Translations under genes and position numbers: made by a program
DNA from: a virus
Direction: 5' to 3' (one strand)
Length of the DNA: 23,598 nt
IMG/VR virus record: IMGVR_UViG_3300037882_001399
Location: 1 to 23,598 of that record
Shown here: positions 1,630 to 19,593 of the stretch, in pieces
Layout of the letters: each line of letters starts with the position of its first letter
Position numbering within the stretch: position 1 is the stretch's first letter
The notes under the pieces: generated by a model
Told to the model about the DNA's origin: nothing
Databases searched by the model: none
The model's input: only the letters and a program-made list of their open reading frames with translations

Positions 1630-2108
1630 TGTAAAACCTCTTGAGTTAAATCAGTAATATTGTTTTCTTTATAATCAAAAGTTAAAACATTCTCTACGTT
1701 ATTAGCGAAAATCCCCATTTGATGAGCAGCTCTAGTCGAGAAGTCATCAGAGTGAATACGGCCTGTATCACGTCCAACAACGTTTTTAGAACTAAATACA
1801 ACGGGACAATGAATAATACAATCGTAATTACGCCACAAATCTGAACCAACGCCACCGTAGAATTGACCCATATACGCGCCACCATCTGTAATCCAAATCG
1901 ATTCGGGATTGTTTTTAGCGAGTTCCACATATTGTAATTCCCTTTTTAAGATTTCATTTTGGTCGTTGTACCCAAGTTCTCTTATCACAAACCGAGCTGG
2001 TTCTGGTAAGTACTCAGTTGGGTAACCTTGTAATTTTAAAGTGTAAGCTAAACCGAGGGCTGTTGTTGTTTTACCCGAAGATGGTGCGCCTAGAAATCCA
2101 ATTAACAT
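1602..2108 (-). CDS. P-loop NTPase / kinase-like protein (AAA_28-like)
   Basis: A 168-aa protein beginning with a beta strand and Walker A motif GAPSSGKT (residues 7-14), followed by an amphipathic helix and a YLPEPARFVIRELGY segment. That segment matches the EPAR-type motif of AAA_28/NadR-like P-loop proteins. A strand ending in DGG (about residue 76) may be the Walker B-like position, and NVVGRDTGRIHSDDF looks like the lid with Arg residues. Family members include nucleoside or nicotinamide-riboside kinases, so phosphorylation of a small metabolite is plausible; the substrate cannot be read from sequence. The start ATG overlaps the nrdB stop by one base (TAATG) with GAGG about 10 nt upstream, so it is coupled to nrdB. 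Confidence 0.82.
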   Translation of the reverse strand: MLIGFLGAPSSGKTTTALGLAYTLKLQGYPTEYLPEPARFVIRELGYNDQNEILKRELQYVELAKNNPESIWITDGGAYMGQFYGGVGSDLWRNYDCIIHCPVVFSSKNVVGRDTGRIHSDDFSTRAAHQMGIFANNVENVLTFDYKENNITDLTQEVLQWKKKHKIK

Positions 2109-4036
2109 TAGAACTCAACCTCGTTCCACTCACCTTGTAAAGCGCCTTTACTGTACTCGGTTTCACGATTCTCAAAGAAGTTAGTGTGACCCTTACCGTA
2201 CACAACCCAATCTAACCAAGGAAGAGGATTATCCATCACATTGTAAATCGGGTCTAAACCTAGTTGAGTTAAACGTAAGTTCGCCATGAAACGGATGTAC
2301 TGCTTTACTTCTTCTTTAGTTAATCCTTCAATGTTGTTATTAGCTGTGTTGAACGCGAGGTCTACAAACTTATCTTCTAGGTCTACCGTCTTACGGCACA
2401 TACCTATCAAGTCTTCAGTAACTTTAGTAACTTGTTCTGGGGACAGGTACTCTTTAACAAATTGTTTGTAAAGTTCAATACAACAAGCTACGTGGTCGTC
2501 TTCATCTTTGATAGAGAACTCTACAACTTTACACATACCGTTCATCTTACCAAAGCGACGGAAGTTCATAAGAATAACAAATGAAGAAAACAGTTGTACA
2601 CCTTCAGTGAAAGCGCCGGTGACAGCTAGTTTACGCGCGATGTCTTCGTAAGATTCTGTACCGAACTGTTGAAGGTATTCGTGTTTAGCCGCCATCTCTT
2701 CATACTCGTAAAACGCTTTGTACTCAGTTTCAGGGATACCAATAGTATCTAATAATAAAGAGTAACTCTCCACGTGAATACACTCACGGTCTGCGATATT
2801 AGTTAAACACATAGCCACTTCAGGGTGACCTTTAAACGTGTTAATTAAATCGCCGTAGCCATCTAACACATCACAATTACCTGAGATAGACGTCTTACCG
2901 TTTCTTCGTACCAATAAAAACCCCTCTGGAACGGTTAAACAAACGACGTCACCTTCATATTGAACGATTTCCTGCCCACGTCGAATTGCTTGTCCGTCAA
3001 CTGGGACGTAAGGTCTTAAAGTCACTTTAAACGTATCGTTAAACTTTTCACTACGAGGGTCTGTGTACTGTACGTAGTGACAGGTGTAACCAGCCAATAC
3101 ACCAACAGCTTGTACCATATCTGAGGCTGTCTTGTTGGTATTTGTAAAAATTATTTTACCCCATCTGTCTACATGACTGTCCCAGTGTTGTACCTCTTCG
3201 ATAAACTGACTGGATTTATTTTTTGTAAAAGAGTTTAGATTAACCCAACAGAAATCTTTAGTAAGGTAGTTTTGTTGGTCCAACGGCCAATGTGTTTTAA
3301 AGACACTATAACCCTTTTCATTTACTGTAAAATCAAAACCTATACCTGCGTTGTTTAATAGTTTGTGTAAACGTTCTATCTTACGTTTCTTAGTAAAACT
3401 GAACCAGACAGGCCGGTAACCCAACCGACTACCGTCGGTGTCATTTTTTACATTACCGTCAGCTTGGAAGGCAATCGCTAAACGCTCCATAGGTGTGAGG
3501 TTACTTTCGTCCTCCTGTACCAACACTTTTGAAGGGGCGGTGTGATGTTTGATATTTTGGTAGAACAACATATTTTTAGCGTGAGTAGATTGGTGTACCC
3601 CAAAACGGTCTGTGTAGAACATTTTATGGTTAGGAGTAACTAACAAATCTACATTTCCGTTTATGTCCTTGTAGTGGTACATTTCACCTTGATGTTTGTT
3701 TTTAACGACACGTAGAGGTTTGACGAAACTAAGGGTTCTGTCCATGTCCACCTGAGCTACCGTATCCTCCAAGGTCACGTCTTTGATGAATTTCCAACCG
3801 AATGGGGTCAGGACTTCAGTGTCATCACTAAAGCAATCAGTTTGAGTAAAAAAGCGGAAGATTTGTGTGAGGAGTACGCGCTCATCTTCTGTCAATCTTT
3901 TGTGCCAGTCAGACACATCGTCACTTAATTGAATCTCTTCAGGTACCCAATGTTTAGCTTGGTGTTTCTTGTAAATCGCAAACATTTGTGGGTATTTAAA
4001 CGGTTTGTAAAAACCTCGTGTATCTAATAATTTCAT
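2108..4036 (-). CDS. nrdB: Ribonucleotide reductase class I small (beta) subunit, intein-containing
   Basis: The 642-aa precursor consists of a 322-aa NrdB extein interrupted by a 320-aa intein (residues 68-387). Removing the intein joins FFTQTD to CDVLDGYGDLI. Ligands align with E. coli NrdB: D67 (D84), then ECIH with E418 and H421 (E115, H118), the radical Tyr Y425 four residues after the His, Glu in FTEGVQLF, and E-x2-H in DEDDHV. These appear complete, so the spliced enzyme should hold a di-metal/tyrosyl cofactor. It provides the radical for NrdA, converting ribonucleotides to deoxyribonucleotides in the cytoplasm. The ATG has GAGGAG 10 nt upstream. It sits directly after a methyltransferase gene that separates it from nrdA. 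Confidence 0.96.
   Translation of the reverse strand: MKLLDTRGFYKPFKYPQMFAIYKKHQAKHWVPEEIQLSDDVSDWHKRLTEDERVLLTQIFRFFTQTDCFSDDTEVLTPFGWKFIKDVTLEDTVAQVDMDRTLSFVKPLRVVKNKHQGEMYHYKDINGNVDLLVTPNHKMFYTDRFGVHQSTHAKNMLFYQNIKHHTAPSKVLVQEDESNLTPMERLAIAFQADGNVKNDTDGSRLGYRPVWFSFTKKRKIERLHKLLNNAGIGFDFTVNEKGYSVFKTHWPLDQQNYLTKDFCWVNLNSFTKNKSSQFIEEVQHWDSHVDRWGKIIFTNTNKTASDMVQAVGVLAGYTCHYVQYTDPRSEKFNDTFKVTLRPYVPVDGQAIRRGQEIVQYEGDVVCLTVPEGFLLVRRNGKTSISGNCDVLDGYGDLINTFKGHPEVAMCLTNIADRECIHVESYSLLLDTIGIPETEYKAFYEYEEMAAKHEYLQQFGTESYEDIARKLAVTGAFTEGVQLFSSFVILMNFRRFGKMNGMCKVVEFSIKDEDDHVACCIELYKQFVKEYLSPEQVTKVTEDLIGMCRKTVDLEDKFVDLAFNTANNNIEGLTKEEVKQYIRFMANLRLTQLGLDPIYNVMDNPLPWLDWVVYGKGHTNFFENRETEYSKGALQGEWNEVEF
2876..3835 (-). 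other. Intein in NrdB (320 aa) with LAGLIDADG-type endonuclease domain
   Basis: The in-frame insert starts with Cys at 3835-3833 (block A CFSDDTEVLTPFGW) and ends SISGN before Cys+1 at 2875-2873. Block B is TPNHKMF and block F VVCLTVPEGFLLVRRNG. A DOD-type endonuclease is suggested by LAIAFQADGNV (block C) and AVGVLAGYTCHY (block E), both somewhat diverged, so nuclease activity is uncertain. All splicing residues (Cys1, block B His, terminal Asn, Cys+1) are present; the penultimate residue is Gly rather than the usual His. The insertion lies immediately after metal-ligand Asp67. Confidence 0.93.
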
Positions 4037-4037
4037 C

Positions 4038-4568
4038 TTATAGTAACTCCTCTGGTACTTGGTTATCTACTGGGTCAAGTTTGATGTTAGTTAAGTCCAC
4101 TAACGGACCTTTCTTAATGACAACAAAGCCAAAACTTACACCTAACTCAGGACTAATATCTACAATGTCTTGACCTCTAAAGATTTGTACGATGTGTTCG
4201 GGGTCTAAACGCCAATAATCGTCTGGGTAAGCGTGACGACCTTTACGTTTTGAACAGAGAGTGCAGATGAAAGCGCCGTCAGTTCTCAGTACGGTCCAAA
4301 TACCTTGGATGAACTCGCGCCAATTACGAACGTGCTCTAAAGTTTCACACGAGATAACCGTACCCACATCTTCTGGGTAAAAGTGTTTGGGTAAATCTTC
4401 TCCTGGTAAAACCATATCTACGTCTTTACCTTCTCTCATGTCGATACCAAAATTCACGTTAACAATATCGCGGATGGTCCCGTTGACATTTAATGAACCG
4501 ACTTCCACGGTGTACCCTTCGACAAGGTGTTTGAACTTTGATACGTAATCTTTAATTCCTTGGTGCAT
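4038..4568 (-). CDS. Class I SAM-dependent methyltransferase
   Basis: A 176-aa protein with the Rossmann methyltransferase pattern: motif I region VEVGSLNVNG (about residues 21-30), an acidic strand end FGIDMREGKDVD, VISCETLEHVRNW as the motif IV/V-like region, and VLRTDGAFICTLCS as the strand after a helix. The ETLEHV signature is typical of the Methyltransf_11 group, which methylates small molecules or sugars. The SKRKGRHAYPDDYWRLDPE stretch is characteristic of phage and glycan-cluster relatives. It lies between nrdA and nrdB: its Shine-Dalgarno site (GAAGGG) is inside the last codons of nrdA, and its stop is 1 nt from the nrdB start. The substrate is unknown; DNA or nucleotide modification would fit the context, but nothing in the sequence proves it. 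Confidence 0.85.
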   Translation of the reverse strand: MHQGIKDYVSKFKHLVEGYTVEVGSLNVNGTIRDIVNVNFGIDMREGKDVDMVLPGEDLPKHFYPEDVGTVISCETLEHVRNWREFIQGIWTVLRTDGAFICTLCSKRKGRHAYPDDYWRLDPEHIVQIFRGQDIVDISPELGVSFGFVVIKKGPLVDLTNIKLDPVDNQVPEELL

Positions 4569-4574
4569 TTTTAT

Positions 4575-7343
4575 CTACCCTTCACAAGCTAAGCAAGCTG
4601 AATCTTCCGGCTTACGTTCAGTTGAAATTTGCCCAATGTACTCTGGGCGCGACATTGCGGTTGAACGACAGTAATACAAAGTTTTCAGACCTTCTTTCCA
4701 AGCGTTAAAGTGAACCTTGTTTAAGTGGTTTTTATCACAATCTGCGTAGAAGAATAGATTGATTGACTGCCCTTGGTCAATAGTCTTTTGTCTGTCACTC
4801 GCGTGTTTTACAATCCAGTTCTGGTCTAATTCGTAAGCGGTCTTAAATACATCTTTATCCCAACTATCCATCCACTCTAAGTGTTGAACAGAACCTACGT
4901 TAGTAATGATAGAAGTCCAAGTAGCGTCGTAATTCTGGTCTTTGTACTTAGTCTTCAGTAAGTGGTCGAGGTGTTTATTCTTGATTAAGAGCGAACCACT
5001 CTTAGTATCTTGACGGAAACCATTCGAAGTGTAAGGCTCTACAGAAGGTGAACACTCCCCGCAAATATTTGAGATACTGGCGTTTGGGGCGATAGCTTGT
5101 GTGTGACTAAAGCGGTGACCAGTACCTTCCATATCTGGGGCTTCTCCGCGCTCAGAACCTAATTTCAAAGAAGCTTTATCAATCTCTGTACGTAAGTGAG
5201 AGAAAATCTTAGTGTTTTGGTAAGCCGCAGTTACTGATTCAAAAGGTGTACCATTGCCTTGTAAATAGGAATGAAATCCCATAGCACCTAAACCAATGTC
5301 TCGACCCATACGCGCTGAGAACTTAGCTTTAGACAGATAGTCAGGAGCGTTACGGAGGAAGTGTGAAAGGTTGTTATCCAAGAAACGGCAGATGTCTTCA
5401 ACGAACGTTGGGTGTTTCTCCCACTCACTAAACTTCTCTAGGTTTACACTTGATAAACAACAAACAGCTGTCCTCTCAGTATTAGTAGGTAATAAAATTT
5501 CACAACAATTACCAGTAACTACCCCATTAAACATAAGTTTATGACGTTTGGGTTCTGTAGCGCAGAAAGTTTTATCCACACGCCCCGTAACCTCAACTCT
5601 ATCAACTTTCACAAAGCGAGAAGCGTCTCTATTTGGGTGTTGGTTAGGTTGTACGTTTAGTCTGCGGAACTCGATACCTAGGTCTAAGAGACGTTTTACC
5701 CCAAAACTGTTGATATTTAACATCCAAACCTCTTTACAAGAGAATAAACCGTTCTCCCCAGTACCGTTGTTCAAAGGCAGTAAATACTTACCTTCGGCTC
5801 TACGAGTAAATAAAGAACTAGTTACACCCATCTCTTGTAACATAAGTACAATGTTTTGGAGCAAACCATGATTTACCGAGGTTAGTTGAATGTTTTGACT
5901 GTGGGTGCTCTGTACCACACACGCGTCTGCGTCTAAAAGACCGGCTAACCATTTCAATCTCGAGTTTAAAGAGTACTTAGAGGGTGTTTCGTTCTTGGTC
6001 AAAGACATTGGTCCGTGGTTCCATCGAGCGCGACCGTATGAATCAAAGTCACCGACAGTCCCTAGGTCAAGGTGTGGAATTACGTCTTTTTTAGGCTCGT
6101 AAACCCATGAATGTTCGTAATCGGCGTTACCGTCACCCGACCAGAAACCGTGGGCGTAAGGATGTGGGAGTTCTTCCGTACCGTAAACAAAGTCTTGCGG
6201 GAAGGATTCTGCTTTCTCTATTTTCATACCAGGTAAGAGGTCTTTAGCTTCAATTACTTCGAGAGGTTTGTGGTAGTCTGTTGAAATATAGAATTTGTGG
6301 TAAGGGGTACAATCCAACGTTGTACCTGTGTTGAGGTGTACCCGGATAAGTTCAGATGACTCCGAGGTTTGTCTAACAGTTACTTCGGACCATTCAGCGC
6401 CGTTCCAAACATCTAAAGTTTTATCTTTCAATGTTGAGATTGTTTTATAACCTTTTTTAGTAAATAAAAGTGTCTCAGGAGCTACGCAAAGGTTTGATTG
6501 GGTAACTTTAAGACCTTTATCTTTCAAAGGTTGTTTTACCGCGCGGTTAGTTGTGTCTGTGAAGTGTAAGTAAGGTTCACCTGTTTGAGTGCGGGTCTCT
6601 AGGATTTTAAACCACAACTCTCTAGCTTTCATTGTTTTCTTAACTTGTTTAGAGTTCGGGTCAACTAAATCCCACGTACCATCTTCTTTAACGGCTTCCA
6701 TGAAACTGTCGGGGATGTTAACTGCGTGGTGTAAGTTAAGACACTTACGGTCAATCGAACCACCAGAAGGTTTGCGCATAATCAAAAACTCTTCAATCTC
6801 TGGATGAGAGATGTCTAAGTAAGCAGCGAAAGCCGCGCGACGAACTTTACCTTGTTTAGCAGCTAATTGTAACGAATCGTCTACTTTCATAAAAGGGATT
6901 AAGCCGGTGGTCATGTTGCCCGAGCTTGTCATCTCACCTTCAGAACGGATAGCTGAGTAATCAGTACCTACACCGCCACCCATTGTAGATAACCATAGGT
7001 TTTCAGCCCAGTGGTCAGCTAAATCTTTACGTGAGTCACCCACAACATTTAAGAAACAAGAGATACCTAAGTTCTTGGAGCAACCAATATTAGCTAGGAT
7101 TGGGGTAGCTGCCATAAACCAGTGTTGGCTCATGTAGTCGTACAAACGTTGAGCGTGTCCAGCGTCGTCAGCTAGCTCTGTACACACACGTGCGAATACT
7201 TCTTGGGCGGTTGTCTCACCTAAACCGAAATAGCCCCCTGAGAGTACTTGTAAACCAGCCTTGGTCATTAGAGTCTCTCTGTCTGGAACTACTCGGATTG
7301 TAATTCCGTTGTTTACATTTGTGTAGAGCTGTGTGTTCGTCAT
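4575..7343 (-). CDS. nrdA: Ribonucleotide reductase class I large (alpha) subunit, intein-containing
   Basis: The 922-aa precursor contains a 595-aa NrdA extein and a 327-aa intein (residues 286-612). The extein has no N-terminal ATP-cone, so it is short compared with the roughly 760-aa E. coli enzyme and probably lacks dATP overall-activity inhibition. Visible catalytic parts are C96 in GISCFLNVVGDS (C225 equivalent), the N-L-C-C-E motif formed after splicing (N284, thiyl-radical Cys C613, E615), C628 (C462 equivalent), the LYY radical-transfer tyrosine pair, and the C-terminal CLAC redox pair (C917, C920) that accepts electrons from thioredoxin or glutaredoxin. The start ATG has AAGGA 5 nt upstream, after a 90-nt gap in which I see no convincing promoter. 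It works with NrdB and probably the thioredoxin-like protein at 16.2 kb. Confidence 0.96.
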   Translation of the reverse strand: MTNTQLYTNVNNGITIRVVPDRETLMTKAGLQVLSGGYFGLGETTAQEVFARVCTELADDAGHAQRLYDYMSQHWFMAATPILANIGCSKNLGISCFLNVVGDSRKDLADHWAENLWLSTMGGGVGTDYSAIRSEGEMTSSGNMTTGLIPFMKVDDSLQLAAKQGKVRRAAFAAYLDISHPEIEEFLIMRKPSGGSIDRKCLNLHHAVNIPDSFMEAVKEDGTWDLVDPNSKQVKKTMKARELWFKILETRTQTGEPYLHFTDTTNRAVKQPLKDKGLKVTQSNLCVAPETLLFTKKGYKTISTLKDKTLDVWNGAEWSEVTVRQTSESSELIRVHLNTGTTLDCTPYHKFYISTDYHKPLEVIEAKDLLPGMKIEKAESFPQDFVYGTEELPHPYAHGFWSGDGNADYEHSWVYEPKKDVIPHLDLGTVGDFDSYGRARWNHGPMSLTKNETPSKYSLNSRLKWLAGLLDADACVVQSTHSQNIQLTSVNHGLLQNIVLMLQEMGVTSSLFTRRAEGKYLLPLNNGTGENGLFSCKEVWMLNINSFGVKRLLDLGIEFRRLNVQPNQHPNRDASRFVKVDRVEVTGRVDKTFCATEPKRHKLMFNGVVTGNCCEILLPTNTERTAVCCLSSVNLEKFSEWEKHPTFVEDICRFLDNNLSHFLRNAPDYLSKAKFSARMGRDIGLGAMGFHSYLQGNGTPFESVTAAYQNTKIFSHLRTEIDKASLKLGSERGEAPDMEGTGHRFSHTQAIAPNASISNICGECSPSVEPYTSNGFRQDTKSGSLLIKNKHLDHLLKTKYKDQNYDATWTSIITNVGSVQHLEWMDSWDKDVFKTAYELDQNWIVKHASDRQKTIDQGQSINLFFYADCDKNHLNKVHFNAWKEGLKTLYYCRSTAMSRPEYIGQISTERKPEDSACLACEG
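5508..6488 (-). other. Intein in NrdA (327 aa) with LAGLIDADG homing endonuclease
   Basis: It starts with Cys at 6488-6486 (block A CVAPETLLFTKKGYKTI) and ends VVTGN with Asn at 5510-5508; the next residue, Cys+1, is the thiyl-radical cysteine of NrdA. Block B is CTPYHKF. Two endonuclease motifs are clear: HGFWSGDGNA and LAGLLDADACVV. Block F (KTFCATEPKRHKLMFNG) matches the RNR-type intein C-terminus. Complete motifs suggest splicing is active and that the endonuclease may be too. Confidence 0.95.
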
Positions 7344-15530: not shown

Positions 15531-16082
15531 TTAAATGTTGATGGTGTAAATTAAACCGTTTTTATTGCGGTAACAATGGGTTTGTGGGTCTTCTTCCGTT
15601 AAAGACTCCCACTTACGTGTAGGTACTACGTTCTCGTAAAAGTCTTGGTGAACCTTAGCCGGCGCTAAACCGTGGACGTAAGTGTCCCAATGTTTTCTCA
15701 TACCTAAGTACTCTTCATCCTTCGTAAAGTCCATGAAAGTTCCTAAGAAGGTATCGTCTCTTAAGTTTTCTTTGAAGTGGTAAAGTTTGTGGTGATTCGA
15801 ACAAAGGGGTACACACTTGAGTAACTCATTTAACACCCAACCTCCACTGGTACCCGCGTTCATAAGACCGAATACAGTCCCCGTTTTATCTTCGCGTTTA
15901 ACGTGGTGAAACTCTACGAAAGATTGGTGGTCACCAAACAGAGGGTTATCCCCGTAAGTTTCTGGGGCTAGATGTTTACTACACACAAAGCAAGTACAAT
16001 CGGCTTTAACTTCTCGGTAAAACTGGAATATTTCTCCGTAGTTCACGGGACGTATCTTTCGGTTGTAGTTTATCTGCGACAT
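15531..16082 (-). CDS. HNH endonuclease with zinc-binding cysteines
   Basis: A 183-aa protein. The zinc/HNH module has CFVC (C31, C34), VEFHHV (H59, H60), N85 in LNELL, then CVPLCSNHHKLYHF (C90, C94, H97, H98). This order C-x2-C...HH...N...C-x3-C-x2-HH is the His-Cys/HNH nuclease signature. The family includes free-standing homing nucleases and phage nucleases acting on host or competitor DNA. ATG 16082 is chosen over an upstream GTG (16091), as GAGGGG lies 8 nt before it. That ribosome site can be paired by an upstream ACCCCTC. The stop codon is 5 nt before promoter P2, so the gene could have inserted next to the promoter. Confidence 0.88.
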   Translation of the reverse strand: MSQINYNRKIRPVNYGEIFQFYREVKADCTCFVCSKHLAPETYGDNPLFGDHQSFVEFHHVKREDKTGTVFGLMNAGTSGGWVLNELLKCVPLCSNHHKLYHFKENLRDDTFLGTFMDFTKDEEYLGMRKHWDTYVHGLAPAKVHQDFYENVVPTRKWESLTEEDPQTHCYRNKNGLIYTINI

Positions 16083-16089
16083 AGTAAGC

Positions 16090-16133
16090 ACCCCTCTTTC
16101 CCATCTAAGATAACTTAAAAGAGTCGGAGGGGT
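16090..16133 (-). promoter_or_regulatory. Inverted repeat covering the HNH ribosome-binding site
   Basis: On the minus strand ACCCCTC (16133-16127) is complementary to GAGGGGT (16096-16090), the Shine-Dalgarno region of the HNH gene. A second pairing, CTCTTT with AAAGAG inside the same segment, would compete with it. This may restrict translation of the nuclease. No U-tract follows, so it is not an intrinsic terminator. Confidence 0.4.
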
Positions 16134-18070: not shown

Positions 18071-19252
18071 TTAATCCTTGTAAGGGTCAGTGACTCCGCG
18101 GGGAGCCATACAAACAACAACCGGTAAAAGTTGTTCTACAATCTCTGTGTACTTCGAGTGGTACCTTAGCACTGATTCGAGGGACTTGTAAACACAAGGT
18201 GATTCGTCTGAATCTCCACCGAATACGTGTATACCGCTATCGAGTAAACTTTGTTTTACCAAAGAGTAATCTACTTGTTTCTTAGCTTGAGTACGTGACA
18301 TCACGCGCCCCGCGCCGTGTACAGTTGAATTACCCATCCGGTAAGATTGTTTAGTACCTTTGATAACGTAAGAGGGGTCTCCCATCGAACCCCCAACAAA
18401 AGCTTCGGTATTCTCGTCGATAAAAGTAGCGCCTTTACGTACCACGTATAAGTTCTCTTTCTTCATACCTACTTTAATCATCTCACGACTTAAGAAGTTA
18501 TGGTGACACTCAACTCTTTTTGTTATTGTAACATCTTTACCTAAAAAAGAATCTAAAACATTCCATACAGATAACATAACTACTTTTCTATTAAGAGCTG
18601 CGTACTCTTGAGCTATTTGTACAGCTTCTAAGTATTCTTGACCTTCAGGGCTATGCGCGTCTAACAAAGTGGGCTCAGCGTCCATAGAGTCCTTAGCGCC
18701 TACCAACTTTAAGAAGTGAGAAGTAATCTTGTGGCCGAAACCTCGAGAACCGAAGTGAGTAGCAATCCACAAAAACCCGTCCTCCCCTTCCATAAGATTT
18801 ACGTAATGGTTTCCTCCCCCAACAGAACCTAACTGCTCTTGTGCTAAAGATTCTAAATCCTTTACAATCTGTGGAGCGTCTTTGGGGACTTGGTACTCTA
18901 ATACTTTTGGGTCTTTTTTACCTTTAGCTCCTACCCCAAAAGAAAGTTCTTGCATAAGTAAACCTCCGAGTGTTTGTTCAAACCCGCGTATCTCATTTAC
19001 TTTAACGTCAGTTTTGAACACAGTGTTACCACACCCGATGTCGTAACCAACACCAGAGATAGACAGTTTGTCTGAGTAACCGACAACACCACCGATGGGG
19101 TGCGCGTAACCGTAGTGACCGTCCGCGCACAGAGCACCGAACCGCGCTGAAGGGTGTTCCATCACTTTGTTCATTTGGTTGATTGTGTTCTCGTCAAACC
19201 ACTCGTAAGGGTTTGTGACAGGTGTCGACCACTTGGTTTTATTGATTGTCAT
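18071..19252 (-). CDS. rtcB: RtcB-type RNA ligase
   Basis: A 393-aa protein from ATG 19252, whose ATG overlaps the upstream stop (ATGA); a longer in-frame start is not needed. Diagnostic motifs are ADGHYGYAHPIGGV, GVGYDIGCGN (D71, C74 metal ligands), SVGGGNH (H149), THFGSRG (H166), ECHHN (H250/H251) and the guanylylated His in VHGAGRVMSR (H312). RtcB joins RNA 3'-phosphate or cyclic phosphate ends to 5'-OH using GTP and manganese. In a phage it probably repairs tRNAs or other RNAs cut by host ribonucleases. It is somewhat shorter than cellular RtcB but all catalytic residues appear present. No archease partner is visible. Confidence 0.95.
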   Translation of the reverse strand: MTINKTKWSTPVTNPYEWFDENTINQMNKVMEHPSARFGALCADGHYGYAHPIGGVVGYSDKLSISGVGYDIGCGNTVFKTDVKVNEIRGFEQTLGGLLMQELSFGVGAKGKKDPKVLEYQVPKDAPQIVKDLESLAQEQLGSVGGGNHYVNLMEGEDGFLWIATHFGSRGFGHKITSHFLKLVGAKDSMDAEPTLLDAHSPEGQEYLEAVQIAQEYAALNRKVVMLSVWNVLDSFLGKDVTITKRVECHHNFLSREMIKVGMKKENLYVVRKGATFIDENTEAFVGGSMGDPSYVIKGTKQSYRMGNSTVHGAGRVMSRTQAKKQVDYSLVKQSLLDSGIHVFGGDSDESPCVYKSLESVLRYHSKYTEIVEQLLPVVVCMAPRGVTDPYKD

Positions 19253-19593
19253 TTTAAAGTACTTTCCAAATCTGTTACTAGTTTTGACCAAAGGTTTTGA
19301 CTTACGAATACCTCATCACCAGCTTTACAAATAAACATTAAATCTTCGACATCATACTTTGTAGACGATCTAAAGTCAAAAGGGGCTGTAAATATTGAAC
19401 AGTGTCGGTTATTGTACCACTCTAAAACTTCTTCTGGTGTGTTTAACTTTTGTCCCCACCAAAAACGTTTACCAAGGTACTTATCTACTACATCTTTTTT
19501 ACACTTATCATTGTACTCTAGCCGTTTCTTGTCCCACAACTCACACATACTAAGACATTTTTTAGCGTCTATTTTTAAGTAGCCGTGTATCAT
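19249..19593 (-). CDS. Unknown protein coupled to rtcB (114 aa)
   Basis: Start chosen at ATG 19593, because AAGGA lies 8 nt upstream; the first ATG (19602) is directly against that site. The protein (MIHGYLKIDAKKCLSMCELWDKK...) has C13 and C17 in CLSMC, later Cys residues, and an aromatic middle (FWWGQ, LEWYNN). Its stop overlaps the rtcB start (ATGA), so its level is tied to the ligase. No family recognised. It could be a small RNA-binding or regulatory partner of RtcB, which is inference from coupling alone. Confidence 0.72.
   Translation of the reverse strand: MIHGYLKIDAKKCLSMCELWDKKRLEYNDKCKKDVVDKYLGKRFWWGQKLNTPEEVLEWYNNRHCSIFTAPFDFRSSTKYDVEDLMFICKAGDEVFVSQNLWSKLVTDLESTLK

Follow-up and report, generated by a model that had tools for sequence, protein, structure and literature searches.

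Why are both subunits of a phage ribonucleotide reductase (RNR) interrupted by inteins at the catalytic centre, and does this double interruption control the enzyme or only reflect where such elements settle? The question is raised by nrdA and nrdB, two neighbouring genes that encode a class I RNR on the minus strand of the window, i.e. the whole stretch of DNA analysed, which is an entire IMG/VR virus record of 23,598 bases and probably a fragment. No near relative at the DNA level was found among 50,697 phage records. The first-pass annotation had proposed an intein at the catalytic centre of each subunit, and had seen in the double block a possible post-translational switch. The inteins themselves are borne out by the open reading frames, the boundaries, intein profiles and homologues at the same sites. 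The observation is of an ordinary kind, since RNRs with an intein in each subunit are known in other phages; the NrdB insertion site, however, is probably undescribed.

Insertion sites, splicing motifs and fold

The two genes and the features within them are listed in Table 1. Both reading frames are open from end to end, and they are separated by a single small ORF encoding a SAM-dependent methyltransferase-like protein (4038-4568). Also near the RNR genes is a dATP/dGTP diphosphohydrolase-like protein (PF18909; 7434-7946).

Table 1. Positions in the window of the two RNR genes, their inteins and the codons flanking the insertions
Feature	Position	Strand	Product or residues	Remarks
nrdA, RNR large subunit with intein	4575..7343	-	922 aa; 595 aa post-splicing	Pfam PF02867/PF00317; NCBIfam PRK09102, E 2e-223
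NrdA intein	5508..6488	-	NrdA residues 286-612, 327 aa	C1 ... TGN; full-length, LAGLIDADG domain present
NrdA +1 Cys codon	5505..5507	-	thiyl-radical Cys, C439 in E. coli NrdA	alignment to E. coli K-12 NrdA and 6dqw
nrdB, RNR small subunit with intein	2108..4036	-	642 aa; 322 aa post-splicing	PF00268, E 2e-61; NCBIfam NF007186, E 8e-113
NrdB intein	2876..3835	-	NrdB residues 68-387, 320 aa	C1 ... SGN; TIGR01445, E 9.6e-5
NrdB -1 Asp codon (D67)	3836..3838	-	first metal ligand, D84 in E. coli NrdB	alignment to E. coli K-12 NrdB
NrdB +1 Cys codon	2873..2875	-	non-native residue retained after splicing	

The sites were placed in an alignment of the joined exteins, NrdA and NrdB of E. coli K-12 MG1655 (NC_000913.3) and a number of phage homologues; at the junctions the exteins run without a gap against the E. 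coli and phage proteins. Residue 286 of joined NrdA, the +1 Cys that opens the C-extein, aligns with C439, and residue 67 of NrdB, the -1 Asp that closes the N-extein, aligns with D84. The successive spacings from D67 to E98, H101 and Y105 (31, 3 and 4) are the same as in E. coli. Alignment with the intein-free E. coli proteins therefore agrees with both sites as first proposed, namely a NrdA intein whose +1 residue is the C439 equivalent and a NrdB intein directly following the D84 equivalent. As an independent check by phmmer, the NrdA +1 Cys matches the corresponding Cys of 6dqw, and D67 matches position 89 of the C. trachomatis R2 protein, a Glu metal ligand in that structure. Of the span initially given for the pair (2873-6488), the upper end stands; the lower end takes in the +1 Cys codon of NrdB, the intein itself starting at 2876.

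Each insertion separates catalytic residues, so that the unspliced subunits must be inactive and dNTP synthesis by the phage enzyme depends on both splicing events, as the first-pass annotation had supposed. Once joined, the exteins retain C225, C439, C462 and Y730 of NrdA and D84, E115, H118, Y122, E204, E238 and H241 of NrdB (E. coli numbering, by alignment), and with all these catalytic residues kept the spliced RNR should be competent. The NCBIfam intein_Nterm profile matches both inserts (E 3.7e-6 and 9.6e-5); together with the homologous inteins that other phages carry at these sites, this indicates that the insertions are not due to chance. The splicing motifs are intact: C1 in both, a block B reading TPYH in NrdA and TPNH in NrdB, and ends in TGN and SGN, each followed by Cys. 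Extein continuity, C1, the TxxH motif, the terminal Asn and the +1 Cys would make both inserts class 1 inteins, for which self-excision and ligation are predicted.

One departure is common to the two: the penultimate residue is Gly and not His. It could be a sign of decay, one or both inteins having ceased to splice and left the phage RNR dead, as has been suggested for the NrdA of Campylobacter phages, which would be degenerating along with its inteins (PMC3653736). Here, however, the frames are open, C1, TxxH, the terminal Asn, the +1 Cys and every RNR catalytic residue are intact, and Gly-Asn or Gly-Gln ends are common among relatives, which makes such a decay extremely improbable. Splicing in the absence of the penultimate His was reportedly described by Chen et al. 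in 2000, a paper cited in PMC8772380.

The NrdA intein carries a LAGLIDADG domain (PF14528, LAGLIDADG_3; 35.5 bits for a cut-off of 22.5). Its structure model (pLDDT 84.7) resembles TliVMA and PI-SceI (Foldseek E 8e-14), two proteins combining splicing and endonuclease functions, and the modelled chain adopts a Hint fold. Among solved structures, the AceL NrdHF intein 6zgq comes closest to the NrdB intein in profile comparison (E 2.3e-8), which points to a putative Hint-type domain; the structure model, built from too shallow an alignment (pLDDT 44.6), was discarded. The endonuclease signal is weak in this intein (13.9 bits against the Pfam cut-off of 22.5), with AFQADG and VQHWDSH looking motif-like by eye. 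The two inteins do not appear to be recent copies of one another (BLASTP E 0.16, not significant), and their GC contents (42.6% and 40.7%, against 40.7% for the window) give no sign of a recent arrival.

Active sites as the habitual place of inteins

A homologue that spans 80% or more of the NrdA intein was found in 315 phage records, among them Rheinheimera, Vibrio ICP1, Caulobacter, Pectobacterium and Corynebacterium phages, and the insertion lies between SNL and C in every NrdA locus opened for this allele. Full-length inteins 28-41% identical to that of the window occupy this site in the Caulobacter phiCbK-like, Rheinheimera Barba and Vibrio ICP1 phages, and the one of Corynebacterium phage Darwin, also at C439, is 35.5% identical. 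One locus (L197) has at the same site a 140-aa mini-intein without endonuclease, as expected of a homing cycle.

Nor are inteins in both subunits without precedent. They have been published for the Pectobacterium phages CB7 and phiTE (Certrevirus), which, like the window, have a NrdA intein at C439 and a NrdB intein, both adjoining catalytic residues (PMC7344957); that RNR inteins at such sites are known in phages thus holds, from these two phages and from the homologues above. They differ from the window in that their NrdB intein lies between E115 and H118, with Thr at +1, and in having HNH introns as well, in both RNR genes of CB7 and in nrdA of phiTE. Two inteins are likewise present in Darwin and in Tenacibaculum phage PTm1. 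The Darwin NrdB intein is related to that of the window (32.6%), but it sits between E115 and H118 and starts with Ala instead of Cys. This intein (L025:6001-6987), with its initial Ala and a Cys at +1, should, from its sequence, splice by the class 2 or class 3 route; its relatives have Cys1. The Aquifex aeolicus NrdB intein and the AceL NrdHF split intein also interrupt the small subunit of a class I RNR beside metal ligands; unlike the window intein, both are located between E238 and H241, and AceL NrdHF is split and of class 3.

Proximity to catalytic residues is usual for inteins: the mean distance to active-site residues is 8.3 A for native inteins and 21.1 A for other Cys/Ser/Thr sites (PMC3359363). 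The relatives of the NrdB intein outside RNR follow the same habit, since they adjoin catalytic acids in helicases (between DE and CH), in family A DNA polymerases (PolA; between RDF and (C/S)QQE) and in one NAPRTase (L218, L222, L226, L224, L228 and L212). Given this habit, together with the occurrence of NrdB-intein relatives in unrelated proteins, the position is best taken as characteristic of the element, not as a form of RNR control.

The reading we favour, and consider highly probable, is that of two independently acquired homing inteins of the LAGLIDADG type in a phage class I RNR, most likely with constitutive and fast splicing. For splicing, its rate and homing we infer the following course. 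Each intein would be translated within its subunit, fold as a Hint domain and follow the class 1 pathway, from a C1 thioester through branching on the +1 Cys to Asn cyclisation; excision would yield active NrdA, with C439 at the junction, and active NrdB, with D84 at the junction. Splicing would most likely be constitutive and fast. Selection acting on the element would account for the active-site positions: the DNA that homing endonucleases target is the most conserved, a Cys, Ser or Thr is required at +1, and an insertion that can neither be lost imprecisely nor fail to splice persists. The window also contains a thioredoxin gene, whose product is a plausible reductant and is counted in favour of this reading.

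Independent assortment of the two inteins

If the two inteins formed a gate on the enzyme, they would be expected to be inherited as a pair. They are not: the NrdA and NrdB inteins assort independently. The Caulobacter, Barba and ICP1 phages, unlike the window, have a NrdB devoid of intein where checked. Conversely, the NrdB intein at D84 is accompanied by an uninterrupted NrdA in L188/L221, and an intein at other NrdB sites is the only one in L216, L217, L220, L244 and PA-SR01. Where both subunits are interrupted, the sites are mixed: C439 and D84 in the window, C225 and D84 in L186, C225 and E238 in L215 and PTm1, C439 and E115 in Darwin and CB7. About five of ten lineages with a NrdB intein carry one in NrdA too, against 340 of 4,078 phage NrdA records, a comparison based on non-random sampling and a crude base rate. 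This apparent excess of doubles could hint at co-selection, but is a lead only, and the partner sites vary between phages. An intein frequency drawn from two large extein surveys was discarded, the 80 loci kept being biased to uninterrupted genes.

The two contigs L186 and L187 share 99.0% identity across 3,446 bases of their nrdA and nrdB genes, as well as the same NrdB intein; NrdA is interrupted at C225 in L186 and uninterrupted in L187. They form a natural intein-plus/intein-minus pair within near-identical RNR genes, useful for testing the cost or benefit of an intein. In nrdA (L186:822-3674 versus L187:2905-4680) identity is about 90% just to the left of the C225-equivalent site and 98-99% to its right, a step which may be a recombination boundary.

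Independent assortment also bears on the idea of a conditional switch, in which oxidation or high zinc would pause one or both inteins and keep RNR inactive until conditions are suitable. There is a precedent in the mycobacterial DnaBi1 intein, whose internal initiating Cys either enters a disulfide with a second Cys or binds zinc (PMC7360933). Among the NrdA inteins of this family, C1 and C309 never vary and C60 is present in 12 of 13 members, a candidate disulfide set near the active site whose conservation makes redox sensitivity possible. However, C1 and C309 belong to splicing blocks and are accounted for by catalysis, C60 is also close to splicing blocks, and in the NrdB family the conserved Cys are C1 and that of block F, with no others. 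As the two inteins are in addition not co-inherited, we regard such a switch as very unlikely. The broader notion that the double active-site block is special or regulatory is not supported either: active sites are where inteins usually lie (PMC3359363), doubles were already public, and either subunit can have its intein without the other.

The D84 site of NrdB

In public phages, NrdB inteins were seen between E115 and H118 (CB7, phiTE and Darwin) and between E238 and H241 (PTm1 and PA-SR01). The Aquifex intein is at the latter site, and R2 inteins and introns are, according to the same paper, mostly near these two regions (PMC8772380). AceL NrdHF was assigned there from the flanking residues given in the literature (SIRDE and SMHVE). 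The D84 site of the window lies outside both regions. A degenerate pattern (FTQxD, then, across the insertion point, C and an intein start) retrieved three IMG/VR contigs, representing two lineages, with a homologous intein exactly at D84; an intein-profile scan returned the same three and no further occupant of the site among the loci read. These contigs (L186/L210, L187/L211 and L188/L221) have inteins 37-39% identical to that of the window, with Cys at +1; they differ from it in their NrdA, which has an intein at C225 (L186) or none (L187 and L188). In bacterial and archaeal genomes the pattern gave five matches, none of them in NrdB, which were attributed to chance. The D84 alleles may or may not form a single clade, the deep branches of a tree of 12 NrdB-type inteins being without support. 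No published description of the site was found in the literature, supplementary files lying outside the search. D84 is a third NrdB insertion site, likely new to the literature; its occupancy means that a third metal-ligand region of NrdB has been invaded, so that several conserved ligand segments are open to inteins.

A position next to a metal ligand raises the possibility that the NrdB intein helps metal loading, the opened site beside D84 taking iron before the intein leaves. Aquifex NrdB, when expressed with its intein, which lies between ligands E228 and H231, contained more iron and had twice the activity (PMC8772380), and the window intein likewise touches a metal ligand. That result concerns one thermophile protein, expressed in E. 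coli and interrupted at a different site; sequence evidence for such a role is lacking in the window, and most phage NrdBs have no intein. We hold an effect of this kind to be most unlikely. Still less probable is a joint gate, in which the C1, C60 and C309 thiols of the NrdA intein would sense oxidation harmful to RNR radical chemistry while the NrdB intein would keep the D84 metal site open for loading; were it true, the phage RNR would mature only in a reduced, iron-replete cell.

The two +1 residues have different origins. Among 121 distinct contexts without an intein, FTQxD is followed by Val (95), Ile (20), Thr (2), Leu (2), Ala (1) or Met (1) and never by Cys, whereas Cys is found there in all three lineages with a D84 intein. 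The NrdB +1 nucleophile is therefore non-native, and mature NrdB keeps it next to D84. Thus, while the NrdA +1 Cys is the enzyme's own catalytic Cys, that of NrdB arrived with the intein and is a one-residue scar, which offers in mature NrdB a testable mark of earlier intein occupancy.

A few other genes were noted in the window: a pair of tRNA genes at 802-973, one for Trp (cca) and one for Ser (tga), a free-standing HNH endonuclease-like ORF at 15531-16091, and, at 18071-19291, a gene for an RtcB-type RNA ligase (PF01139), possibly serving RNA repair in the course of infection.
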